A stretch of 24,770 bases of DNA, taken from a virus. Where the stretch lies: positions 1-24,770 of IMG/VR virus record IMGVR_UViG_3300027749_000461; one strand, given 5' to 3'. The position numbers and the translations under genes are program-made. How positions within the stretch are numbered: position 1 is the stretch's first letter; every line of letters starts with the position of its first letter. This document shows, in pieces, positions 3,341 through 24,770 of the stretch. The notes under the pieces are model-generated. The model was not told where the DNA came from and ran no database searches. It worked only from the letters and a program-made list of their open reading frames with translations.

Positions 3341-4753
3341 ATGAACGCATTTGTAACAGCAGTAGCTAATCAAGAAGCCCGTACCGCAAACGGTATGAAG
3401 GCTCGTAAGTCAACAGCTTCGGCTTGTGTCGACCTGTTCTACAACATCGGCGCAAGCCGTGGTAAGGACATCACAGGCGACTTCACCGCCGCTTATGTGG
3501 AAAACCCAGACGTAGCACTACGCATCGCACAATGGGCACGTGATGTGCGTGGTGGTGCAGGTGAACGTCAACTGTTCCGCGACATTCTAGTTCATCTAGA
3601 AAAGCGTGACCCAGACGCCGCTTTGGCTCTGTTGAAGAAGGTTCCAGAAGTGGGCCGTTGGGATGATATCTTTGTCTTCCAATCACCAGTGTTGAAGTCA
3701 GCCGCTTATACCATGTTGGGTGATGCCCTACGTGCTAAGAACGGGTTGGCTGCAAAGTGGACTCCTCGTAAGGGCCAAATCGCGGCTGAAGTACGAGCAT
3801 TCTTCGGAATGTCTCCGAAGCAATACCGTAAGAGCCTAGTTGGTATGACCACAGTTGTGGAAACACAAATGTGTGCAGGCGATTGGGACAACATCAACTT
3901 TAGCCATGTTCCTAGTGTAGCTTCTCGAATCTACAAGAAGGCATTCAATCGTCACAGCCCAGCGTTTGCTGAGTATGTTGCCAAGTTGGTAAGTGGTGAC
4001 AAGACTGTGAAGGTTAACGCCAACGCAATCTTCCCACATGATGTGTTGAAGGGTGTTATCGGTTCTTACCGTGCAAGTTTGAACAAGACAGAAACTGACC
4101 ATGTGATCGCACAATGGGACGCTCTGCCTAACTACGTTGGAGATGCCAGCATCATGCCAATCGTAGACGTTAGCGGTTCTATGAGTTGCCCAGCAGGAAA
4201 GAACACTAATGTGACTTGTATGGATGTTTCAATCAGCTTGGGCTTGTACCTAGCAGACAAGAACAAGGGTGTGTTCAAGGACACATTCTTGACTTTCTCT
4301 AGCAAGCCACAACTGGTTACTCTAAAGGGTAACATTGTTGACAAGGTTGCTCAAATGAGCAAGAGTGATTGGGACATGAGCACTAACTTGCATGCGGCTA
4401 TGGACAAGATCCTAGACGTTGCGGTTAAGGGTTCAGTACCAGCTAGCGACATGCCAGCCATGTTGCTGATCTTGAGTGACATGCAGTTTAACCAATGCGC
4501 CAAGTTTGACGACAGCGCAATGCAAATGATCGAACGCAAGTTTGAAGACGCAGGTTACACTGTGCCACAGATTGTTTTCTGGAACCTAAACAGTTCAGAC
4601 AACGTACCTGTGGTGTCAGACAAGAGTGGTGCCGCATTGGTAAGTGGATTTAGTCCAAGTATAATGACTAGCTTGCTAGCCGCTGATTTGGATCAATTCA
4701 CTCCAGAAGGCATCATGCTTAAGACTGTAATGAGTGATCGTTACACTCTTTAA
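3341..4753 (+). CDS. DUF2828 protein: TROVE/Ro60-like RNA-binding domain plus vWA domain
   Basis: This 470-residue protein matches the DUF2828 family, a relative of TROVE (Ro60) proteins that bind Y RNAs and other structured or misfolded RNA. The N-terminal alpha-helical part carries the family stretches NGMKARKSTASACVDLFY, WARDVRGGAGERQLFRD, VGRWDD and VVETQMCAGDW. The von Willebrand A part has the MIDAS-like motif DVSGSMS (about residues 274-280), with a later LILSDMQFN strand. AAGGA at 3330-3334 is a good Shine-Dalgarno for ATG 3341. Codon use is unlike the neighbours: lysine is nearly always AAG and asparagine mostly AAC, suggesting strong expression or a different origin. The structured RNA directly upstream is the obvious candidate partner, by analogy with bacterial Rsr/Y-RNA loci (inference). 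Confidence 0.85.
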   Translation: MNAFVTAVANQEARTANGMKARKSTASACVDLFYNIGASRGKDITGDFTAAYVENPDVALRIAQWARDVRGGAGERQLFRDILVHLEKRDPDAALALLKKVPEVGRWDDIFVFQSPVLKSAAYTMLGDALRAKNGLAAKWTPRKGQIAAEVRAFFGMSPKQYRKSLVGMTTVVETQMCAGDWDNINFSHVPSVASRIYKKAFNRHSPAFAEYVAKLVSGDKTVKVNANAIFPHDVLKGVIGSYRASLNKTETDHVIAQWDALPNYVGDASIMPIVDVSGSMSCPAGKNTNVTCMDVSISLGLYLADKNKGVFKDTFLTFSSKPQLVTLKGNIVDKVAQMSKSDWDMSTNLHAAMDKILDVAVKGSVPASDMPAMLLILSDMQFNQCAKFDDSAMQMIERKFEDAGYTVPQIVFWNLNSSDNVPVVSDKSGAALVSGFSPSIMTSLLAADLDQFTPEGIMLKTVMSDRYTL

Positions 4754-6127: not shown

Positions 6128-6588
6128 TGCCAAAATGTTATCAACTAATAGGTGTGCCGGGTGCAGGTAAAAGTACCTGGGTTAAACATCAAGAGTGGGC
6201 GTTAGGGCTGACTATAGTTAATACCGACGCATTTGTAGAAGACTATGCAAGAACACAGGGTAAGACCTATTCGGAAGTGTTTGTAGAATACATGCCCACA
6301 GCAATTGACCTAATGATCGAACAGGTTGTGTTTGCACGTGAACACAGTCATACTATAATTTGGGATCAAACCAGCACTACTGTTAAAAGTCGTGCTCGTA
6401 AGTTTAACATGTTGCCCGACTACTATCACATTGCTGTGGTGTTTCGTACTCCCGAACATAAAGAACTTGTGCGTCGATTGTTTAGCCGGCCAGGCAAAGA
6501 CATTCCTGATCATGTGGTTGCCAGCATGATTGCCAGTTGGGAAGAACCTACTGAAGCAGAAGGCTTTAAAGAAATTTGGCGAGTTTGA
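6127..6588 (+). CDS. P-loop kinase (polynucleotide-kinase / AAA_33-like)
   Basis: This 153-residue protein has a Walker A motif GVPGAGKST at residues 9-17 and a later TIIWDQTSTTVKSRARK segment. Those features and the size resemble the 5'-kinase domain of T4 polynucleotide kinase and related AAA_33 proteins. The C-terminal LVRRLFSRPGKDIPDHV would be the lid. A role in phosphorylating RNA or DNA 5' ends is plausible, but other small substrates are possible. It overlaps the previous gene as TAATG, and its stop is inside the -35 box of the next promoter. Confidence 0.72.
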   Translation: MPKCYQLIGVPGAGKSTWVKHQEWALGLTIVNTDAFVEDYARTQGKTYSEVFVEYMPTAIDLMIEQVVFAREHSHTIIWDQTSTTVKSRARKFNMLPDYYHIAVVFRTPEHKELVRRLFSRPGKDIPDHVVASMIASWEEPTEAEGFKEIWRV

Positions 6589-12634: not shown

Positions 12635-12814
12635 ATGAAACTAATTCAAAACCCTTGTAAAAGTATCTGTAAGACGAAAGATAATGTATGTATCGGTTGC
12701 AAACGCACGACTGAAGAAATACAAAATTGGGCTAGTTTATCAAACGAAGAAAAAAAATTAATTGTTGAAAGAATTAAAAATATCGATGGTGATCCGGATA
12801 CTTTTCGGCACTAG
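12635..12814 (+). CDS. DUF1289 small Cys-rich protein, opposite in direction to its block
   Basis: This 59-residue protein matches the DUF1289 pattern: NPCKSICKTKDNVCIGCKRT followed by TEEIQNW and a NEEKK helix. Four cysteines in a C-x3-C-x6-C-x2-C arrangement suggest a metal or Fe-S site; the biochemical role of this proteobacterial family is not established. I start at ATG 12635, because an upstream in-frame codon would extend into the divergent gene. Its last 41 bases overlap the convergent gene at 12774. It is the only plus-strand gene inside the roughly 12-kb minus-strand block. Confidence 0.75.
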   Translation: MKLIQNPCKSICKTKDNVCIGCKRTTEEIQNWASLSNEEKKLIVERIKNIDGDPDTFRH

Positions 12815-13427
12815 TTTTAAAATGATTCTCCATCATATCTTTGTCTTTAAGTGTGTGTACAACTAATAATATTACTTTATTAACACCTTCAGTTTTATCC
12901 GATCCGTGCAAACATGTTGCATTATTATAAACAAACCAGTTTGTGTCTTTAGGTAAAGTAACATAGTTTACACCTGCACCCATTTTAAAAACTTTAAAAG
13001 TGCATTTAGGGTTTTCATCATATATTATAGATCGTAATGCTACAGGTTCTGCAGTATGATCTTTATGAAAAGGAATATTGATTGAACTATTCCATAATCT
13101 CAAAGCAAGTATTTCATCAATCCAAGGACACGCTGCATACATATCGTCAACTACATTTGGAAATATTTCTTTATAATTAAGATAAGGTAGTTTCCAGTGG
13201 CCGTCTTCTAACATTTTTTCGTCTTTGGCGTATATATTGAGACCAATAAAAAATTCTTTATTTTTAGAAGTTTCGGAAAGTCTGTTACCAGCAGGATCAG
13301 ATTTAACAAGATAGCTTGGGCCCGCATGCTCTTTCCATTTTTTCCAAAATAAATCCCAGTCCTGCGGAACTAGAGGTGGCGCGGATAACGCAGCCCATAT
13401 CAAATTATCTGTGTTTATATTATTCAT
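12774..13427 (-). CDS. Tandem-paralogue DSBH oxygenase-like protein, copy 1
   Basis: In this 217-residue protein H121-K-D123 is followed by LRSIIYDENPKCTFKV, then NWFVYNNATCLHGSD with distal H174 and K184. Three other genes in this block share the same plan and an N-terminal FWxxW stretch. The fold should be 2OG/Fe(II)-type; a lysine stands where many relatives have the 2OG-binding arginine. No substrate is predictable. The copy lies at the end of its gene run, separated from the other three by a methyltransferase. Its 3' end overlaps the DUF1289 gene. Confidence 0.6.
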   Translation of the reverse strand: MNNINTDNLIWAALSAPPLVPQDWDLFWKKWKEHAGPSYLVKSDPAGNRLSETSKNKEFFIGLNIYAKDEKMLEDGHWKLPYLNYKEIFPNVVDDMYAACPWIDEILALRLWNSSINIPFHKDHTAEPVALRSIIYDENPKCTFKVFKMGAGVNYVTLPKDTNWFVYNNATCLHGSDKTEGVNKVILLVVHTLKDKDMMENHFKTSAEKYPDHHRYF

Positions 13428-13441
13428 ACTATTTTCTTAGA

Positions 13442-14074
13442 TTAATTAATTATTACTGTACATTGTCCGGTATTTGTCACTACTACTATTCTAGCAGTTT
13501 TATCAGATTCTTGTAACCATTCTGAAAATGCTTTTTTTTCGTGTTCATGTGCATGCCACTCATCAAAGACAATAACAGTGCCTGAAACAATGTAGTTGCC
13601 GATGTGATTAAAAATTGTTTTTGCACTGGAATACAAATCAGAATCTATATGTAAAAAAGCAATAGGATTAATATCTGTCTCTTTAATAAAAACAGGTAAC
13701 GAATCTTTAAACCATCCGTCTACTAATTTAACATTCTTATAAACCTTAGGTTTCTCTGCCGACCAACTTCCCATCGGAAACGTTATACTTTTAGTTGGAT
13801 CACTTAACGAGTTTTTTATAAACCATTCTTCAGGAATACCTTGCCAAGAATCAAAACCGTATATAATGTTTGAACCAATTCTTTTTGCAATAAAATTAAT
13901 GGTATGTCCTTTAAATACTCCAAATTCCAAATACGATCCTTTAATTGTTACCTTAACTAAAGCAAACCAGAGGTTCCTAAATCTACCCGATGTGGACTTA
14001 GAGTTGTCCAACAAGTTAAGTTCAAAGAAATTTTCATCAAATAAAATTCTATCCATATATGCTACATTTCCCAT
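13442..14074 (-). CDS. TylF/macrocin O-methyltransferase-like SAM methyltransferase
   Basis: This 210-residue class I methyltransferase has SAM motif I as LEFGVFKGHT (49-58), followed by IYGFDSWQGIPEEW (71-84). HIDSDLYSSAKTIF (142-155) and FDEWH (170-174) are the metal-binding acidic motifs of the TylF/MycF family. These enzymes methylate sugar hydroxyls in macrolides and occur in surface-glycan clusters. AAGGA precedes ATG 14074. It overlaps the start of the preceding oxygenase-like gene's 3' end by 13 bases and so is translated in the same operon. A sugar or small-molecule acceptor is inferred from the family only. Confidence 0.78.
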   Translation of the reverse strand: MGNVAYMDRILFDENFFELNLLDNSKSTSGRFRNLWFALVKVTIKGSYLEFGVFKGHTINFIAKRIGSNIIYGFDSWQGIPEEWFIKNSLSDPTKSITFPMGSWSAEKPKVYKNVKLVDGWFKDSLPVFIKETDINPIAFLHIDSDLYSSAKTIFNHIGNYIVSGTVIVFDEWHAHEHEKKAFSEWLQESDKTARIVVVTNTGQCTVIIN

Positions 14075-14721
14075 AATGGAAATCCTTTATCTTTTGTATG
14101 TTCAACTTGCTTTAATAATAATTCAGGATACTTTACTTTCCCAAATGCTCTCATTAATATTTTATAATGATTTTTATTGAAGTCAGCGCCGTGATAAAAA
14201 TTTCTGTTATTGAATGCAAATAAATTTTGATTTTCGTTATACGGAACATGTTGTTCTTTTTTAGTAAGTGTATGCCTTACTTTAAATGTTGGGCTAGGGT
14301 TGTTGTCATATATCAAAGATCTAATAGCAACCGGGCCTGGAAATAAAGGAGCAGGATCTATATGGTATGGCACCACCCGAAGGCAAGCCCAAAGAACAAC
14401 AGTATCGCATTCGAACCAAGGCATGCGATCTTCTAATTCTTCAACATAAGGATCCCACAGACTAGGTTCTAAAACTACATTTTGTTTCCACGTACTACCT
14501 TTGACGTACCCATCTGTCTTCAAGTAGGTTATCATCCCATCAAATTGCGGAAGTTCAGTAGCTAAAAATAAATCGTTACCACGACTTTCATCTAGAGAAT
14601 CTTTTTTTACTTTAGTCAAGGGTTCTTTATTGTTATTCCACATGTCCCAAAACTTATCCATACTATGCGGATACAAAGGTTTAACATCTGGTATAAAATA
14701 TCCTACTTTTGATAAATCCAT
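14062..14721 (-). CDS. Tandem-paralogue DSBH oxygenase-like protein, copy 2
   Basis: In this 219-residue protein H120-I-D122, IRSLIYDNNPSPTFKV, LFAFNNRNFYHGAD with H177, and K187 follow the same plan as copy 1. The N-terminus has MDKFWDMW and a PLTKVKKDS basic stretch shared with copy 3. Divergence between copies is large (only motif-level identity is obvious), so the duplication is old or the copies were acquired separately. It shares one base with copy 3 (TAATG-type junction). Confidence 0.6.
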   Translation of the reverse strand: MDLSKVGYFIPDVKPLYPHSMDKFWDMWNNNKEPLTKVKKDSLDESRGNDLFLATELPQFDGMITYLKTDGYVKGSTWKQNVVLEPSLWDPYVEELEDRMPWFECDTVVLWACLRVVPYHIDPAPLFPGPVAIRSLIYDNNPSPTFKVRHTLTKKEQHVPYNENQNLFAFNNRNFYHGADFNKNHYKILMRAFGKVKYPELLLKQVEHTKDKGFPLWEM

Positions 14722-15359
14722 TATGAACTTCCCTCGTGTTTTGCATTATTTGTTAACTGATTATTTATAAACAGCTTAAACCCATCGGGATCAATCAACG
14801 GGCCGTCGATGCGTATTAATATTTTTTTACCGTCTATTGGTGATGATGCACCGTGGAAGAATTTTTCATTGTTAAAAAATAGTAAATTTGGGCCGGTTGA
14901 CAAATCGGGAAAAAATATGTTAAATGGATTACGAGTTACAAGATAAAATGTACGGTTCTTACATTCGTCTAATAACATTATTCGAGGAGCACTTGGATAA
15001 GGGTCTCTGGGTAAGCCGTCTTGGTGAGGACTAACTTGTTTTTTATTAGACCAAAGTGTGATGCCTTGTACGTCAAACCATGGAAGACTTTTAATAATTT
15101 GCTGGATAAGATCTCCAAACAATTCATCGTTTGGTTTGTAGTTAACTTCCCAAACAATTGTTTTTTGATAAGACGGCTGTTGCCATATAGTTACTCCATC
15201 CCAAAATTCACCGTCATAGCCTCCAGCGTTTCCACGAGAATCTTTTTGTATCCTTTTGATAGGAATTGTTACTACATTCCACCAGTCCCAAAATTGTTCA
15301 CGATTGATTTCAAATCTAGGAATATTAGGTACAATGTAGGCTATATTAGAAAGTTCCAT
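14721..15359 (-). CDS. Tandem-paralogue DSBH oxygenase-like protein, copy 3
   Basis: In this 212-residue protein H112-Q-D114, RIMLLDECKNRTFYLV, LLFFNNEKFFHGAS with H169, and K178/K179 match the common plan. It lacks the NP found after the D(E/N/S) in the other copies. Its N-terminus, REQFWDWW and RIQKDSRGN, parallels copies 2 and 4. GAGGAA serves as ribosome-binding site. It is probably another 2OG/Fe(II)-type enzyme with a different substrate or position. Confidence 0.58.
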   Translation of the reverse strand: MELSNIAYIVPNIPRFEINREQFWDWWNVVTIPIKRIQKDSRGNAGGYDGEFWDGVTIWQQPSYQKTIVWEVNYKPNDELFGDLIQQIIKSLPWFDVQGITLWSNKKQVSPHQDGLPRDPYPSAPRIMLLDECKNRTFYLVTRNPFNIFFPDLSTGPNLLFFNNEKFFHGASSPIDGKKILIRIDGPLIDPDGFKLFINNQLTNNAKHEGSS

Positions 15360-15363
15360 AATA

Positions 15364-16008
15364 TTATTCCTCAGTTATTACAAAAATATCTTTGTATTCT
15401 GAATAACTGTCTTCTAAAATTTTGAACCAACGCGGCTCATCTATATTGCCTATTACAAAGTGTGCTATAATTTTAAAATGGCCTTCGTATGTAGCACCGT
15501 GATATATTTTAGGATTATTATATACAAAAGAGTTAGTATTCTCGGGCATTTTTAAAAATTGTTTTTCAGAAAATCTGTTTCTTTGAAAGAAAAAATTAGG
15601 ATTAGGATTACTATCATAAAACATAGATCGATAAGCACAAGCATAAGGCAAGTGGTCTGTTAATTTCATACCGTCTTTATGCAGAGCAACAGGAATAATA
15701 TTGCTTTGAAATAATATTTTATGAGTTTTAAAAGGCAGTTGATCTATCTGTTCTTTTAATTTGGGAAACACCAAATCAAGATTAACAAAATTCACATCCC
15801 ACATTCCAGGTTTAGGATTAGGGTCAACAAGATCCCATATGAATCCATTCCAAGTTACCTCCATCCCGTTGTTTCCAACACGGTCGGGCGCAAGTCGTTT
15901 ATAACCAACAGCGTTTTCTTTCCATATTTTCCAAAAAGTATCCCAGTTGTCTGGTTCTAGTTTAGGAACTTTTATAGGTAATGCTAAAATTTTGTTTATA
16001 TCTTTCAT
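15364..16008 (-). CDS. Tandem-paralogue DSBH oxygenase-like protein, copy 4
   Basis: In this 214-residue protein H110-K-D112, YRSMFYDSNPNPNFFF, SFVYNNPKIYHGAT with H170, and K179 carry the shared pattern. The N-terminal DNWDTFWKIWKEN and DRVGNNG resemble copy 1 most closely. It lies four bases from copy 3 and three bases from the TauD-like gene, so the run from 16725 to 14062 is one tight operon. Confidence 0.58.
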   Translation of the reverse strand: MKDINKILALPIKVPKLEPDNWDTFWKIWKENAVGYKRLAPDRVGNNGMEVTWNGFIWDLVDPNPKPGMWDVNFVNLDLVFPKLKEQIDQLPFKTHKILFQSNIIPVALHKDGMKLTDHLPYACAYRSMFYDSNPNPNFFFQRNRFSEKQFLKMPENTNSFVYNNPKIYHGATYEGHFKIIAHFVIGNIDEPRWFKILEDSYSEYKDIFVITEE

Positions 16009-19726: not shown

Positions 19727-20638
19727 CTAATTCAAAATCCAAGATTTCGTTTCCTTAACAATTTTTTTAAACTCCGTTGGTCCAAATGGTAACCCAACCA
19801 TTTGATTATCTACAAAACTTTGTTGTACTGATTTATCTTCAAGGTATGCTTTTAAAAATTCAGACCAAAATTTAACAGCATCAGCATTAGTATTTTTTGG
19901 AACAAGGACACCATAGCCGTCTACTTCCTTCCAACTTGGATATATACTTTCCATAGTAGGAATATTGTATCCTGGAACTTTATTACGTGTAACTGTTAGA
20001 ACTTTTAAGTTACCTGAATCTACAAACCCTTTAACTAGCACAAAAGGAATTCTGGCGGCAGTAATATGACCACCTACTAGATCGTTAACTACCTGTGAGC
20101 CGCCTTTATATCCAACAAGTACTGGTTCTTTGGTTGGCTTTGAAATTTTAAAAAATTCGTTTAGCATTATTTTTTGCGCAGGGGCACCGTAACCAAAAGT
20201 GATATTGTCCCCATTGTGTACAGATTTTTCTAAATCCTTAATTGTATCAATACCAGATTGTGAACTTACAACAAACGCCCCAACTGTATCACTTACTCCG
20301 GTAATAATTTCTATTGGCTTGTCAGGATATGCTATCTCATAAGATGCAACAACTCCAGATGTTGTTATTGAAATAGTGTAACCGTCGGTTAGACTTTTGG
20401 ATAGTTCTCGTAACCCTATTGTGCCATCAGCTCCTGGTTTATATAACGGCACAAATTTGATATGTTTATCAATACAATATTGTTCTAACATACGAAATAC
20501 TCTATCGGCGCCGCCACCGGGTGCAAATGGAATTATTACAGTTATAGGTTTTAATACAGGATCAAATGCAAAAGAACTTTGAGCAAAGAAAGTAATTACA
20601 ATTGATAAAAATATTTTGGTTATGTATTTTAAGTTCAT
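19727..20638 (-). CDS. TctC/Bug-family periplasmic solute-binding protein
   Basis: This 303-residue protein starts with a Sec signal peptide (about residues 1-24, cleavage near FA-FDP). PITVIIPFAPGGGADRVFRML is diagnostic for the Bug/TctC binding protein of tripartite tricarboxylate transporters, and PGADGTIGLRELSKSLTDGY and the GVLVPKN segment also fit. Family members bind carboxylates or amino-acid-like ligands in the periplasm and pass them to TctAB. No membrane partners are encoded here, so it would have to use a host transporter or only sequester a ligand. It is the first gene of the minus-strand run. Phage carriage is unusual and suggests capture from a proteobacterial host. Confidence 0.82.
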   Translation of the reverse strand: MNLKYITKIFLSIVITFFAQSSFAFDPVLKPITVIIPFAPGGGADRVFRMLEQYCIDKHIKFVPLYKPGADGTIGLRELSKSLTDGYTISITTSGVVASYEIAYPDKPIEIITGVSDTVGAFVVSSQSGIDTIKDLEKSVHNGDNITFGYGAPAQKIMLNEFFKISKPTKEPVLVGYKGGSQVVNDLVGGHITAARIPFVLVKGFVDSGNLKVLTVTRNKVPGYNIPTMESIYPSWKEVDGYGVLVPKNTNADAVKFWSEFLKAYLEDKSVQQSFVDNQMVGLPFGPTEFKKIVKETKSWILN

Positions 20639-20689
20639 AAGTTTTGGTTATCTGTATTTGAGATTAGATGATATTTAGTAATTAGCTGC

Positions 20690-20718
20690 TTGACTTTTAA
20701 TTGATATGACTATATAAT
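20690..20718 (+). promoter_or_regulatory. Sigma70-type promoter placed at the tRNA-like gene
   Basis: TTGACT (20690-20695), 17 bases, TATAAT (20713-20718). The start site would fall at about 20725, exactly the first base of the tRNA-like gene. It would also drive the secreted protein gene at 20860. It lies in the divergent gap upstream of the TctC-like gene. Confidence 0.8.
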
Positions 20719-20724
20719 ACAAAT

Positions 20725-20834
20725 GTGGACGTGAGTGGAACTGGTATACCTCCTCCTAGTAGCGCAAGCGAACGGAGGGACAGGGCCTTGCCCTTAGGGT
20801 GGCTTTGTAGGTTCGAATCCTACCGTCCGCACCA
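20725..20834 (+). tRNA. Aberrant class II tRNA-like gene, isotype undetermined, CCA encoded
   Basis: The acceptor stem is GTGGACG (20725-20731) with CGTCCGC (20824-20830). The T arm is GTAGG-TTCGAAT-CCTAC, followed by A20831 and encoded CCA at 20832-20834. The D region (GTGGAACTGGTATAC) resembles tRNA-Leu. The anticodon stem CCTCC (20752-20756) with GGAGG (20774-20778) would enclose 17 bases instead of seven, including a small GCGCAAGC hairpin. The variable region is long and forms GCC-TT-GCCC-TTA-GGGT-GGC (20785-20803). No standard anticodon loop with U33 can be placed. It may be a tRNA with an inserted loop, a degenerate tRNA, or a tRNA mimic. Confidence 0.62.
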
Positions 20835-20859
20835 TTTTTAACTACACACAGAGGCTCGT

Positions 20860-21192
20860 ATGAAAAAGGCATTGGTAATCATAAGTTTGTTAGTAACCGC
20901 TAACTCGTTTGCATATCAAGAAGATCCGCATGAAGAGTTCAATATGACTCGTAACATGACCAATCGAACAACAATTACATTTAGACCTGTAGCCAATGTA
21001 CAAGCTGCCTGTGATGCAGAAAGCAAACGTTTGACTGGACAGGGTTTTGGATTTGGTGTGGATGCTTGCAGCTTTTGGAATGACCAAGGCACCCAGTGTA
21101 CAATCATTACTGGACCTACCGCAAACTTCCACACAATTGGACATGAAGTAAGACATTGCATTCAAGGTAATTTTCATGCAGGAAAAAAATAA
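20860..21192 (+). CDS. Small secreted zincin-like protein
   Basis: This 110-residue protein has a Sec signal peptide (about 1-18, MKKALVIISLLVTANSFA). The mature part has four Cys (51, 70, 80, 100) that could form two disulfides. H95-EVR-H99 followed by H106 is an HExxH zinc-protease signature with a plausible third ligand, as in GHEVRHCIQGNFH. AGAGG upstream is the ribosome-binding site. It probably acts in the periplasm. Protease activity is inferred from the motif only, since the protein is very small. Confidence 0.6.
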   Translation: MKKALVIISLLVTANSFAYQEDPHEEFNMTRNMTNRTTITFRPVANVQAACDAESKRLTGQGFGFGVDACSFWNDQGTQCTIITGPTANFHTIGHEVRHCIQGNFHAGKK

Positions 21193-21730
21193 AAAAGTAG
21201 CAAGCAGTCACGAACGACACACCTTCCAAAAAGAAGGGTATATCAAACGCTGTGAGGAAAAAGGTGAAGAGCCTAGTCCTGACGTTGTTAATATGTACAA
21301 CTCTTTTAGAGATCAGGATGAGGCTGATCTTGTTGATCCAACATGGCAAAAAAACAACATGGAATACGATTTGCGGGCCAGTAAAGAAATGTGCGACAAA
21401 GTCAAACAGTCAGACAACTATGCTCAAAACTTGTATGCGGCTATGTGCAACATGACTTGGCAAAGCAGAGAGTTTTGGCAGGAACTAAAAGGTGAAGCTT
21501 GGAGTTGCAGTTGGCGACACGCTGGCGGCATCATTGCTGACATGCAGGAAAAGGGTGACTACATTGATTGGTACTGTAGCGGCATTGGTAATAGTGAAGA
21601 TGGCTACGGTCTTGCAGGCAACAAACCTGAACAAGGTGCTTATGTGCCAGAAGGTGTTGTTACGGAAGAAATTGAATTGGATTTGAACCGTTTGGGTTGG
21701 AGACCAATTCCTTGGAGTGATGATGAATAA
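21176..21730 (+). CDS. Unknown phage protein, Trp/Cys-containing
   Basis: This 184-residue protein has a polar N-terminus, then NMTWQSREFWQELKGEAWSCSWRHAGG and a C-terminal WYCSGIGNSED and YVPEGVVTEEIELDLNRLGW. The layout looks like a compact globular domain with an acidic tail. It overlaps the secreted gene by 17 bases. No function is recognised. Repeated residues W, C and H suggest a possible metal site. Confidence 0.65.
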   Translation: MQEKNKKVASSHERHTFQKEGYIKRCEEKGEEPSPDVVNMYNSFRDQDEADLVDPTWQKNNMEYDLRASKEMCDKVKQSDNYAQNLYAAMCNMTWQSREFWQELKGEAWSCSWRHAGGIIADMQEKGDYIDWYCSGIGNSEDGYGLAGNKPEQGAYVPEGVVTEEIELDLNRLGWRPIPWSDDE

Positions 21731-21745
21731 CAGAGTAAATACACA

Positions 21746-21916
21746 ATGGAAAAACTAACATTTAACGCAGAAGATATATTTGAAGACATTCCTGGAGATC
21801 CGGACAATGTTATTATGAAACTTCCGCCTGAGCTCTTGGAGCACACCGGCTGGAAAGACGGAGACACGTTAAACATTGAAATCGAGGATGGCGCCATTGT
21901 GATTAGTAAAGTATGA
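21746..21916 (+). CDS. AbrB/MazE-like (SpoVT-AbrB type) small protein
   Basis: This 56-residue protein ends with MKLPPELLEHTGWKDGDTLN and IEIEDGAIVISKV, which matches the swapped-hairpin AbrB fold found in transcription regulators and MazE-type antitoxins (the LPxELLxxxGWxxGDxLxI signature). The N-terminus (LTFNAEDIFEDIPGDPDN) is acidic and unlike a DNA-binding arm. It overlaps the IF-1 gene as ATGA, so translation is coupled. No toxin gene is adjacent. Confidence 0.65.
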   Translation: MEKLTFNAEDIFEDIPGDPDNVIMKLPPELLEHTGWKDGDTLNIEIEDGAIVISKV

Positions 21917-22131
21917 GTAAAGACGATGTAATTGAATTAACCGGACAGGTTGAAGAAGTATTGCCCGGGAATATGTTTAGAGTAAAAGTTGATAATATGC
22001 CTAATTTGTTACTTTGCTATTTGGGCGGAAAACTTAAACAGAATAAAATAAGAATTATCTTGGGAGATAATGTAAGACTAGAAGTCAGTACATACGATCT
22101 CTCAAAAGGTAGAGTAACTTATAGGTTGTAA
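21913..22131 (+). CDS. infA: Translation initiation factor IF-1 homologue
   Basis: This 72-residue protein is the same length as bacterial IF-1. It follows the family throughout: IELTGQVEEVLPGNMFRVKV, then LGGKLKQNKIRIILGDNVRL and EVSTYDLSKGRVTYRL, which correspond to IF-1 segments ending in YDLSKGRI. IF-1 is an OB-fold protein that occupies the ribosomal A site during 30S initiation. The sequence deviates in the middle (NMPNLLLCYLGG instead of the usual HVVTAHISG). A phage copy could favour initiation on phage mRNAs or replace the host factor. It starts in the stop of the AbrB-like gene. Confidence 0.88.
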   Translation: MSKDDVIELTGQVEEVLPGNMFRVKVDNMPNLLLCYLGGKLKQNKIRIILGDNVRLEVSTYDLSKGRVTYRL

Positions 22132-22133
22132 TA

Positions 22134-22796
22134 ATGAATATAATTCTCGAACGTGTGTTCAATGTATGTAAGACAGTTCGAGAATCTAGTCCTGAGCAGA
22201 CTACTTTCAAAAAGTTAATAGGTCGTACCCGCAATACATTCAAGCTACACAATTTTGATATTGCTATTAAAACCAAAAAAGATCAAGATTTAGAAGCAGA
22301 CAAATGGTATGTCATGGCGTACTATGACAGTGAGAATGATTTCAATATGGACACAGCTATCGAAGTCATAGTGTATCACAATTTGCAAGGCGACGAACCG
22401 TTTGGCTCTCATCAGGTAACTAGTTTCCTTACAGAAATCTTTGATGCCACTGTACATGAGTTCCGGCACCAATATCAAAGTATACGGCGTGATCATAATC
22501 AATACGGTGAACACGTTGACACGCCATACGAGCGTTATCTAGCAGACGACGATGAATTGGATGCTTATGCTTTTAGCATAGCAATTGAACTGCTACGCAC
22601 AATGGATGCTGAACGTGCCAAGCGCAGAATGAGCAGAATAAGTGTTTTGAGCAAGATGCGTACAGGTGCTCAATTTTCTAGTCCGCAACTAAAAGCCTAC
22701 ATTGGCCACTTTGGCTTGAACAATCTAACCAAAAAGTTATCAAAAAAGATATATCATCACTTGAATACAGTTGACAAAAGATACGTTTTCATGTAA
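22134..22796 (+). CDS. Zincin-like phage protein (HExxH)
   Basis: In this 220-residue protein H108-EFR-H112 (DATVHEFRHQY) followed by E141 in LADDDELDAYAFSI fits a gluzincin-type HExxH...E arrangement. It is cytoplasmic (no signal peptide). It could be a protease with a narrow target, such as a phage structural protein or a host factor, but a non-catalytic zinc fold is equally possible. The C-terminal 60 residues are basic (MSRISVLSKMRTG, NNLTKKLSKKIY). It starts two bases after the IF-1 stop, and its own stop lies in the -10 box of the next promoter. Confidence 0.62.
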   Translation: MNIILERVFNVCKTVRESSPEQTTFKKLIGRTRNTFKLHNFDIAIKTKKDQDLEADKWYVMAYYDSENDFNMDTAIEVIVYHNLQGDEPFGSHQVTSFLTEIFDATVHEFRHQYQSIRRDHNQYGEHVDTPYERYLADDDELDAYAFSIAIELLRTMDAERAKRRMSRISVLSKMRTGAQFSSPQLKAYIGHFGLNNLTKKLSKKIYHHLNTVDKRYVFM

Positions 22797-22799
22797 AAT
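22771..22799 (+). promoter_or_regulatory. Sigma70-type promoter (TTGACA-17-TAAAAT)
   Basis: TTGACA (22771-22776), 17 bases, TAAAAT (22794-22799). It lies within the 3' end of the zincin-like gene and its stop codon, just before the next gene. Confidence 0.75.
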
Positions 22800-22829
22800 A
22801 CACGTATAGAAACTAACAAAGTGAGCAAC

Positions 22830-23516
22830 ATGAAAACGTTTCCTACACAACAAGTTTTAGAACTGGCTTGTGCCGCACAGCGAGTTAACGGTGCATATCT
22901 TAAGGAACCAGTGCCAGTATTAGCGGCAGACTTTACTTATATGTACTCAAAACAATCTAATAAAATGATGATGTTGTGTACAGTAAATCCTAATAACTGG
23001 ACAGCTGATCCAAAAGATGCTCCTATGCCACTTCGTGTGTTGCCCGAAGATATCATATCAGCAGAAGAGATTAAAACATATTTTAAACGACTGTTGTTTG
23101 CAGCCATCGAAGGTGAAAACGAATTTCAAACTAATATCAATAGTTTTTTGAGTGACAATACAATTGAACTTAAAAACTTTGGATACATTGCCTGCTTGCC
23201 AAGTGTCTATGCTAGAGATAGGGTGCAGAACAAGATCAAAAAAGTTGCACGACAAGCAGAAGAAGGTTATCTTGGAGAAATTGGTAGCCAGCTAAAAGAT
23301 TTAGATTGCGAAATACTTGAATCAGTTAAGTCAAAAAACTTTGAAGGTTACAATATTTCTGCTATAATAAACAACAGAATGGCTTCTTGGTTAAACAAAA
23401 CTGCACTGGCACTGGGTCCGTGTGTAATTGTCAAAGCCAAAGTTAAAGATCACACTAAACACTGGAAGCATCAAAATGATGTGACTAGGTTAAATTACGT
23501 TAAGGCAGTACAATAA
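22830..23516 (+). CDS. Unknown phage protein
   Basis: This 228-residue protein starts at ATG 22830; GTG 22821 would add three residues. It has hydrophobic core strands (NFGYIACLPSVYARDRV) and many basic helices (NKIKKVARQAEEGYLGEIGS, SWLNKTALALGPCVIVKAKV). The KVKDHTKHWKHQ end is basic, and nucleic-acid contact is possible. The sigma70 promoter immediately upstream suggests early expression. No family is recognised. Confidence 0.65.
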   Translation: MKTFPTQQVLELACAAQRVNGAYLKEPVPVLAADFTYMYSKQSNKMMMLCTVNPNNWTADPKDAPMPLRVLPEDIISAEEIKTYFKRLLFAAIEGENEFQTNINSFLSDNTIELKNFGYIACLPSVYARDRVQNKIKKVARQAEEGYLGEIGSQLKDLDCEILESVKSKNFEGYNISAIINNRMASWLNKTALALGPCVIVKAKVKDHTKHWKHQNDVTRLNYVKAVQ

Positions 23517-23737
23517 TGTATAAAACAATTTGCACAGAAGTCGAAGTAGATGTCGATTTGAGTGACTTTGACACTGAAGACTTGATTGAAGAATTAGAAA
23601 GCCGTGGCACCGGTGTCAGTGACTTTGGCGACGGCAAAGAAATACTGGAGTCTATTCACGCAAAGCGTAGACTGGGAAAAGATTATCAAACTGAATTGGA
23701 TCAATTGATCTGGGCAGGACTAGGAAAATTTATATGA
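23516..23737 (+). CDS. Small acidic orphan protein
   Basis: This 73-residue protein is rich in Asp and Glu (TEVEVDVDLSDFDTEDLIEELESRG). It shares its first base with the previous stop and overlaps the next gene as ATGA. Acidic proteins of this size in phages sometimes mimic nucleic acid or bind basic partners, but nothing here proves that. Confidence 0.6.
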   Translation: MYKTICTEVEVDVDLSDFDTEDLIEELESRGTGVSDFGDGKEILESIHAKRRLGKDYQTELDQLIWAGLGKFI

Positions 23738-23925
23738 GTACATGGACATTTAGAACATTAATGACTATCTTAGGCATAGTCATCATTGCACAACTAGTTA
23801 TGTTAGTAATTACCAAGCCTAGACCTATTATGTGTTTAGGTGGAGTCATTATGGAACAACACGATGACATGTGGATACAAGTTGGAATATTCCCTAAATT
23901 TTGTGTGCCTATAGATAAGGATTGA
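23734..23925 (+). CDS. Small membrane protein
   Basis: In this 63-residue protein residues about 7-27 (RTLMTILGIVIIAQLVMLVI) form one transmembrane segment, followed by a basic TKPRP and an exposed tail with two Cys. Topology is probably N-in or signal-anchor. It overlaps the acidic protein gene as ATGA. The function is unknown. Confidence 0.6.
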   Translation: MSTWTFRTLMTILGIVIIAQLVMLVITKPRPIMCLGGVIMEQHDDMWIQVGIFPKFCVPIDKD

Positions 23926-23926
23926 T

Positions 23927-24283
23927 ATGAGCGGTTGGAATACAATTCAAAGAATTCGCAATATCGAAGAAAAAATCGATCAACTGGGCTTTAAGTTCAG
24001 CAAGAGTAAACATACCGATTGGTCAGAAGATCACGGTGCTCTAAGCCTTGTGCCAAAAGATCATGATGCCCTGCCAATTTACAGCCGTGATGCGGAACTG
24101 TTTGTTGGTAGTTTGGAACGACTAGAAGATTGGCTAGCCGGTGTGCGCTGGGCCCGTGAATACGACATGATGTTAAAGTTAAGCGATGAAAAGAAACGTA
24201 CTGCCGCTGAACAAAAAGAAAAGAATCGACAATTGATGCGTACCCTTAAAGAAGGCCGACGTGTGGAAGGTGTAGTAGAATGA
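23927..24283 (+). CDS. Unknown phage protein with charged C-terminal helix
   Basis: This 118-residue protein has an N-terminal helix (TIQRIRNIEEKIDQLGFKFS), a middle DHGALSLVPKDHDALPIY, and a long charged helix (LKLSDEKKRTAAEQKEKNRQ) that could form a coiled coil. It starts one base after the previous stop and overlaps the next gene as ATGA. No family is recognised. Confidence 0.62.
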   Translation: MSGWNTIQRIRNIEEKIDQLGFKFSKSKHTDWSEDHGALSLVPKDHDALPIYSRDAELFVGSLERLEDWLAGVRWAREYDMMLKLSDEKKRTAAEQKEKNRQLMRTLKEGRRVEGVVE

Positions 24284-24750
24284 AAAAGATATATTACGAA
24301 AAGATTGGACGCAAGTACGTGCCAGTTGCCGAGTATGACAACGACTTTCTAGACAGCTTTACTAAGGGTACACACTTGGTCATGAGCTATCCCGGCGGAT
24401 CCAGTCGCAGATACAATATCGATCCTAACTATGCCGCAATGATTGCCGCTGGCCGAGTTGCCGAAGATGCTATCTGTAAGGCTATCTCAAAAGCCAGTGA
24501 ACTACGGCCAAAGAGTACTCCCATTACTCCAGGACAAAAGAAGGCCTGGGAAAAGTTGGCAAAAGAGTTTGGCGATGATCTTTGCACACTGCACGGACTC
24601 AGTGTACATGACTGTGCTGAAGCAGGAGTCCGAGCCATGATGCTGGAAGCTGACAAGTTATTGTCTAACCCAACTGTACGTAAGGCATACGAAAAGTTTT
24701 TATTTGTAGCAGAATTAACGAGAGATCATAATGAGCAAAGCAAAACATAA
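24280..24750 (+). CDS. Unknown phage protein
   Basis: This 156-residue protein has an N-terminal beta-like region (KKIYYEKIGRKYVPVAEYDN) followed by helical parts, with TPGQKKAWEKLAKEFGDDLC and HDCAEAGVRAMMLEADKL. It is coupled to the preceding gene by ATGA and overlaps the next start by 20 bases. The function is unknown. Confidence 0.62.
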   Translation: MKKIYYEKIGRKYVPVAEYDNDFLDSFTKGTHLVMSYPGGSSRRYNIDPNYAAMIAAGRVAEDAICKAISKASELRPKSTPITPGQKKAWEKLAKEFGDDLCTLHGLSVHDCAEAGVRAMMLEADKLLSNPTVRKAYEKFLFVAELTRDHNEQSKT

Positions 24751-24770
24751 ACCTCACCAATGGATTGACG
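24731..24770 (+). CDS. Start of an unknown gene (runs off the window)
   Basis: ATG 24731 begins MSKAKHKPHQWID and stays open to the window end. It overlaps the previous gene by 20 bases, the overlap style used throughout. Too little is visible to name it. Confidence 0.5.
   Translation, partial: MSKAKHKPHQWID

Follow-up and report, generated by a model that had tools for sequence, protein, structure and literature searches.

Why would a phage encode IF-1, and why would that gene begin within the end of a gene for an AbrB-like protein? These questions are raised by a 24,770-base fragment of one virus record (IMG/VR), which we will call the window and whose contig is that of a phage. The answer that we favor, and think fairly probable, is that this is a selected phage IF-1 within an early-type translation-takeover operon of large, myovirus-like freshwater phages. 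Features are on the plus strand of the window unless stated otherwise.

The phage IF-1 and its contact loop

The IF-1 gene (21913..22131) has an ATG start and encodes 72 amino acids. A preliminary description of this DNA proposed that the protein is a full-length homologue of IF-1, and our searches agree. Residues 3-72 match the infA equivalog TIGR00008 at 84.8 bits (cut-off of 61.15), Pfam's eIF-1a family (PF01176) matches at 62.8 bits (cut-off of 30.2), and PHROG_30201 matches at 4e-22. There are also full-length matches to solved IF-1 structures in the PDB, the best at 1.8e-19. Among phage IF-1 relatives, the median dN/dS is 0.056, which indicates strong purifying selection.

The preliminary description also held that the central loop deviates from bacterial IF-1. 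We compared column counts for about 92 sequences from the phage family with those for 76 bacterial IF-1s (E. coli numbering, with Met as residue 1). Y35, G37, L40, K41, Q42, and K44 are found across the family. Position 35, which is Y in the phages, is H in 51 of the bacteria and Y in 24; position 41, which is K in the phages, is R in 70 and K in 4; and the K at position 44 never occurs among the 76 bacteria. In addition, the beta2-beta3 turn of the phage proteins is longer by one residue, an insertion that none of the 76 bacterial proteins has in the same alignment (a spirochaete IF-1, L124, has a longer one there). The deviation is real, is fixed in the family, and sets these proteins apart from most bacterial IF-1s, but it is not entirely the phages' own: the IF-1 of a betaproteobacterium (Zoogloea, L094) also combines Y35, G37, L40, and K41, so the loop is not wholly without precedent.

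In bacterial IF-1, K39 and M42 touch the 530 loop, R41 and R46 touch the flipped A1492/A1493, and H35, Y60, R64, and R66 face towards S12 (PMC10913371). The phage family keeps K39, R46, Y60, K64, R66, and R70, although some members have R in place of K39 or K in place of R46 (the latter in 22 of 92 sequences). That is, the 30S-contact residues K39, R41, R46, Y60, K/R64, and R66 and the C-terminal R70 are all kept or conservatively changed (R41K). Because the loop changes are fixed and yet the named contact residues are kept, the contact surface is altered, not destroyed. The fixed changes could weaken or alter binding.

These changes also raise the possibility that the protein is an antagonist, which, with its altered loop, would occupy the A site without normal release and so slow host initiation or block host factors from the A site. 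The fixed Y35, G37, K41, Q42, and K44 and the beta2-beta3 insertion lie near A1492/A1493 and the 530 loop (given the contacts in PMC10913371), as this idea would have it. But the strongly conserved contact residues are kept, charge is conserved (R41K and the added K44), Y35, G37, and K41 co-occur in the Zoogloea protein, and a lytic phage still requires initiation. We consider an antagonist unlikely.

The gene was not taken from a host recently. The nearest bacterial IF-1s that we found are 51-59% identical to it. In a tree with 125 rows, the phage family forms one clade (support of 99/99) with a long stem, and when divergent freshwater IF-1s and two marine AbrB-linked IF-1s were added, all of the AbrB-linked IF-1s formed one clade (99/88). 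These values and the low identity rule out recent capture of a host's infA. A sister relation to the Betaproteobacteria has support of just 90/55; a 72-residue protein gives limited resolution, and monophyly is the only inference that we use from the tree.

The AbrB-fold gene and the conserved operon

The gene just upstream of IF-1 (21746..21916) encodes 56 amino acids. As the preliminary description had it, this is an AbrB/MazE-like gene whose stop codon overlaps the start codon of IF-1, in a shared ATGA (21913..21916; 4 nt). The ORF is just above the cut-off for Pfam's MazE_antitoxin family (PF04014; 25.6 vs. 24.7 bits), and its AlphaFold2 model (pLDDT of 90.8) matches MazE and the N-terminal domains of AbrB with Foldseek probabilities of 0.99-1.00. 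The corresponding E values are about 0.1 because the domain is small.

The overlap is highly conserved. A script found overlaps of 1, 4, 8, 11, or 14 nt between the end of the AbrB gene and the start of IF-1 in 101 of 103 distinct junctions; another junction (L074) has the same ATGA by eye, which brings the total to 102. The sole exception is a marine locus (L349), where 2 nt separate the genes and IF-1 begins with GTG and has a GGAG of its own. Sequences resembling a Shine-Dalgarno (SD) site lie 5' of IF-1 in only 12 of the 103 junctions. The AbrB genes at these junctions belong to two subfamilies, with and without an EDIFEDIPGD-type start (about 47-95% and 33-48% identical to the window's copy, respectively), and the overlap is kept in both. 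About 100 distinct phage loci share the pair, far more than chance would give. Taken together, the kept overlap, the scarcity of SD-like sequences, and the presence of the overlap in both subfamilies are the pattern expected of termination-reinitiation. The proposed coupling of the two genes is thus firm as to geometry, and we infer translational coupling as its mechanism.

In mazEF, a MazE-fold gene directly overlaps the next gene, and the same arrangement is seen here. Could the AbrB-fold protein and IF-1 be a disguised toxin-antitoxin pair, in which an OB-fold toxin follows a MazE-like antitoxin? The supposed toxin is above the cut-off for the infA equivalog and is under strong purifying selection, and PADLOC had no match for the AbrB gene. 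Furthermore, the AbrB gene precedes other genes in some related phages that have no IF-1. No MazF-type toxin was found beside the AbrB gene, which is followed by IF-1 and then by a zincin-like gene. We regard a toxin-antitoxin pair as very improbable.

The takeover operon that we favor would also include the genes on either side. The first of these (20860..21192) encodes a protein of 110 amino acids with a signal-peptide-like start and a HExxH-like motif (GHEVRHC); it had no match in a Pfam search. It is followed by a conserved protein of 184 amino acids from an unnamed family (UP184; 21176..21730), which is present in 79 of 80 related loci and had no match in Pfam or PHROG searches. Downstream, the zincin-like protein (22134..22796; 220 amino acids) begins 2 nt past the stop codon of IF-1 and has conserved HExxH and DExDAY motifs. 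Its structure model has a pLDDT of 90.9, and no fold match was found in the PDB; the matches were three unnamed viral models. Next is a conserved protein of 231 amino acids (22821..23516; PHROG_2319), which was found in 54 of the 80 loci, many of the others ending before they reach it. Our promoter scan found a second promoter-like site (TTGACA-17-TAAAAT; 22771..22799) at the end of the zincin-like gene, but it overlaps coding sequence, so its conservation may be partly driven by the protein. A scan of 20500-24770 showed no terminator-like site.

Variations on this layout were seen in other phages. HExxH-type proteins also lie beside an AbrB-fold gene in phages without IF-1 (the loci examined were L348, L349, L356, and L357), which suggests that the partnership of AbrB and zincin is older. 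In another locus (L055, around 6219-6250), the zincin gene is absent and a perfect TTGACA-17-TATAAT lies directly after the stop codon of IF-1. Elsewhere in the window, several adjoining look-alike ORFs of 210-220 amino acids (12774-16008, minus strand) seem to form one family; the one member that was searched against Pfam had no match. These ORFs adjoin genes for TauD, TylF, and a fatty-acid desaturase. A DUF7788/DUF2828 protein (166 and 96 bits) is encoded at 3341-4753.

Phage IF-1 was expected to be rare, but it is not: 227 stretches from IMG/VR have close relatives, and Lak and other huge phages also encode IF-1. In the best 80 of the 227, IF-1 is 82-100% identical, and the conserved gene order is UP184, AbrB, IF-1, the zincin-like gene, and the 231-amino-acid gene. 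With UP184 as the query, we found 78 further loci, all 78 with IF-1; the zincin-like gene gave 30 further loci, again all with IF-1; and the AbrB gene gave 79 loci, of which 18 lack IF-1. A 102-kb phage contig (L338) has the same gene block with IF-1 cleanly absent, and IF-1 was not found elsewhere on that contig, so IF-1 can be lost and is not indispensable. Many GenBank "phage" records with infA look like bacterial contigs, and these were left out as examples of phages. CAKLQH020000005.1 (L083), named Acinetobacter phage MD-2021a, has the look of a bacterial contig, with infA near leuB, leuC, leuD, ansA, and truA.

Among the related contigs, the three largest measure 345, 356, and 383 kb, and a T4-type Gp23 capsid protein is encoded on those of 345 and 383 kb. 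Of 11 large related records, 7 encode ribosomal protein bS21, among them all four above 250 kb, and tRNA-cluster stretches of three jumbo contigs contain 24-29 tRNA genes. IF3 was not found in the 10 related records searched (several are fragments). Of the bacterial bS21s in our comparison, those of Betaproteobacteria are closest to the phages' own. The window itself encodes a solute-binding receptor of the TctC/Bug type (19727-20638, minus strand; PF03401, 57.6 bits), a family that is expanded in the Burkholderiales. Given the affinity of bS21 and this receptor gene, Betaproteobacteria are the likely but unproven hosts.

The bS21 and tRNA genes also suggest a simpler account, in which the phages merely top up translation by providing extra IF-1, bS21, and tRNAs when the host's factors are scarce or attacked, and do not select for phage mRNAs. 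This amounts to the non-selective version of our preferred explanation. Betaproteobacterial-type bS21 and 24-29 tRNA genes in related phages do look like a general supply for translation. On the other hand, the phage IF-1 is not host-like, given its identity of 51-59% to the nearest bacterial IF-1s found and its long stem branch. We view a plain top-up as possible, but it is not the account that we would choose.

A tRNA-like RNA at the head of the operon

The takeover operon that we prefer seems to have a promoter and a leader RNA of its own, both of which the preliminary description overlooked. The promoter scan found a sigma-70-type promoter (TTGACT-17-TATAAT; 20690..20718) with 11 of 12 consensus bases; most of 41 distinct loci have this promoter as well, about 1.05-1.25 kb before IF-1. 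It is followed by an RNA element (20725..20834) that scores 123.7 bits with our covariance model R1, which includes the window's copy itself. Across 105 distinct instances of this leader RNA, the promoter has 10-12 of 12 consensus bases and always has a 17-bp spacer. The end of the -10 box is 6 nt (102 instances) or 7 nt (3 instances) from the first G of the RNA, so transcription is predicted to start at or next to that G. A T4-type late promoter was ruled out: TATAAATA occurs at the chance rate and is absent before the operon. Nor did we find support for the idea that the phages need IF-1 because their messages lack SD sites: the SD core motif was found at 25%, versus 7% for the control, and the SD signals of this phage family's genes are ordinary, if modest.

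The leader resembles a tRNA. Its parts are an acceptor stem, a D-like arm, a hairpin that replaces the anticodon arm, a long variable arm, a T-arm, A73, and CCA, and its length is 96-118 nt across the family. In an alignment of 50 leaders, there are four helices: a 7-bp acceptor stem, a 6-bp helix at the place of the anticodon stem, an 8-bp variable arm, and a 5-bp T-stem. Of the cells at paired positions, 99.3% can pair (98.6% for the acceptor stem and 100% for the T-arm), and 15 of the 26 pairs show changes on both sides. None of 500 shuffles equaled this covariation, and when the partners were slid by 1-3 columns, pairing fell to 38-52%. RNAalifold recovered the same helices with no structure supplied. 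A73 is invariant, the T-loop is UUCGAAU in 48 of 50 leaders, and the 3' end is ACCA in 102 of 105 instances. The folding energies of single leaders are unexceptional (z of -3.6 to +1.0), so the case for the leader rests on covariation and position.

This RNA is tRNA-like and is not a tRNA. Instead of the 7-nt anticodon loop, the hairpin has a loop of 2, 5, 6, 14, 16, 17, or 22-24 nt, often with a UUCG or CUUG cap. Rfam's tRNA model gives the window's leader 23.7 bits, which is below the gathering score of 29, and among leaders from eight sources, none passes. ARAGORN calls no tRNA in the window's copy, calls nothing or inconsistent anticodons elsewhere, and finds no tmRNA in the leaders. An ordinary tRNA with an intron in its anticodon loop is ruled out by the shortest forms, which have a 2-nt loop there. 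Separately, ACCUCC is nearly invariant in the leader (93 of 95 distinct copies) and has the letters of the core anti-Shine-Dalgarno of 16S rRNA. It is often paired with GGAGG in a hairpin (66 of 95), and the two could be purely structural.

The leader is tightly linked to IF-1. A covariance-model search found it in 78 of the first 80 IF-1 loci, and in the other two (L075 and L081), IF-1 begins within 500 nt of where the sequence ends; in other words, all 78 loci with room for the leader have it. In the reverse direction, we scanned IMG/VR for an exact motif, with no regard to the operon, which gave 76 new loci (some of them contigs that were already in our other sets). The promoter was present in all 76, and UP184, AbrB, and IF-1 were present in all 53 with enough downstream sequence. 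Searches of whole records found one strong copy of the leader per phage, and the weaker matches were mostly ordinary tRNAs. In a tRNA cluster of the 383-kb contig (L489, 501-612, minus strand), there is a second, divergent tRNA-like sequence, which scores 43 bits under the leader model and has neither an ARAGORN call nor an encoded CCA. Most of the divergent and marine loci with AbrB and IF-1 (at most 65% identity) lack the leader, so it was either gained or retained by a single sub-lineage.

Which tRNA does the leader resemble? When we ran the leader model on phage tRNAs, three tRNA-Leu scored 35.8, 34.7, and 34.0 bits, versus 34.2 for a tRNA-Tyr and 33.4 for a tRNA-Ser; three of the four best ARAGORN-called tRNAs are phage tRNA-Leu genes. 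In E. coli, LeuRS needs A73, the A15-U48 pair, G18G19, A20a, and contacts between the D- and T-loops, and tRNA-Leu is still leucylated without its anticodon arm and variable arm (PMC9976931). The leader columns that match these determinants are invariant or nearly so, under our own mapping of columns to tRNA numbering. Reasoning from these columns, we predict that the leader may be charged by the host's LeuRS. The leader might also protect the 5' end of the mRNA, but this would be insufficient by itself, as it leaves the kept CCA, A73, and T-loop unaccounted for.

A more ambitious idea would join the RNA to the protein. A tRNA mimic with no anticodon and with the determinants for E. coli LeuRS, either free or at the 5' end of the mRNA, might be charged or bound by LeuRS, EF-Tu, the CCA enzyme, or the ribosome, and might cooperate with the modified IF-1 from the same transcript to seize control of the host's A site and of initiation as infection begins. 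We put this forward tentatively and rather doubt it.

The proposed takeover and known systems

Our preferred explanation, the takeover operon, starts from firm observations of sequence and covariation: the identity of IF-1, its conservation, the geometry of the overlap, the promoter, and the leader RNA. From these, we infer early timing, reinitiation, 30S binding, and displacement of the host's IF-1. The host's sigma-70 RNA polymerase would start the transcript at, or within one nucleotide of, the first G of the tRNA-like RNA. The message would then encode the small HExxH protein, UP184, the AbrB-fold protein, IF-1, and the zincin-like protein. IF-1, which has almost no SD signal of its own, would be translated by ribosomes coming straight from the end of the AbrB-fold gene, so that the two proteins would be produced in a fixed ratio. 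The phage IF-1 is predicted to bind the A site of the host's 30S subunit like any IF-1, and it may supplement or displace the host's IF-1 during infection. Redirection of host initiation to phage mRNAs, as the preliminary description suggested, would be a further and more speculative step. The early timing is suggested by the sequence of the promoter, and against it, the bS21 of other freshwater phages is expressed late (PMC9723584).

These findings bear on how phages divert the host's ribosomes to their own messages. In this case, one conserved, promoter-defined unit joins a divergent IF-1, a partner tied to it in translation, and a tRNA-like RNA, and the biggest contigs add bS21. The parts of the operon are small enough to be expressed in laboratory strains, so ribosome takeover could be tested directly. 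Most surprising is the leader RNA: if the proposal is correct, then a tRNA mimic without an anticodon at the start of a phage mRNA would be, as far as we found, a new kind of viral RNA element.

Each component has known relatives. Like bacterial IF-1 (infA; TIGR00008, PF01176), the phage protein is a full-length single domain of 72 amino acids with nearly all of the 30S-contact residues; unlike it, the phage proteins form a clade with the beta2-beta3 insertion and fixed K44, Q42, K41, and Y35 and share no more than 59% identity with any bacterial IF-1 that we found. IF-1 was mentioned in Lak phages in 2019 (PMC6784885), and IF1 and IF3 were reported in huge phages in 2020 (Al-Shayeb; PMC7162821). 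The IF-1s of huge phages (Lak, those of Al-Shayeb 2020, and that of Sinorhizobium phage Phosso) are likewise phage-encoded, in genomes of hundreds of kilobases, with a proposed role in intercepting host translation. However, they are 44-51% identical to ours and branch elsewhere, on long branches.

Phage bS21 (PMC6375957, PMC9723584) is another part of the initiation machinery that is encoded by large phages, and it co-occurs with this IF-1. In contrast, the phages of PMC9723584 that carry bS21 have Bacteroidetes as their predicted hosts and express bS21 late, and IF-1 is not mentioned there. The AbrB-fold protein shares its fold and its Pfam family with the small DNA-binding proteins AbrB, MazE, and SpoVT, but it has no toxin partner, and the N-terminal EDIFEDIPGD motif is conserved in one subfamily. 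AbrB domains are mentioned in jumbo phages (PMC7824862). The leader is most like class II tRNAs, notably tRNA-Leu, in its acceptor stem, A73, CCA, D-loop GG and A20a, long variable arm, and UUCGAAU T-loop. Unlike them, it has hairpin loops of 2-24 nt in place of the anticodon loop, begins at the expected +1 of a promoter, and heads a protein-coding operon. In the part of the literature that we examined, we found no description of the AbrB-IF-1 unit or of the tRNA-like leader. What is new, then, is the conserved unit: a clade of AbrB-linked IF-1s with a fixed overlap, loop changes, a promoter, and a tRNA-like leader.
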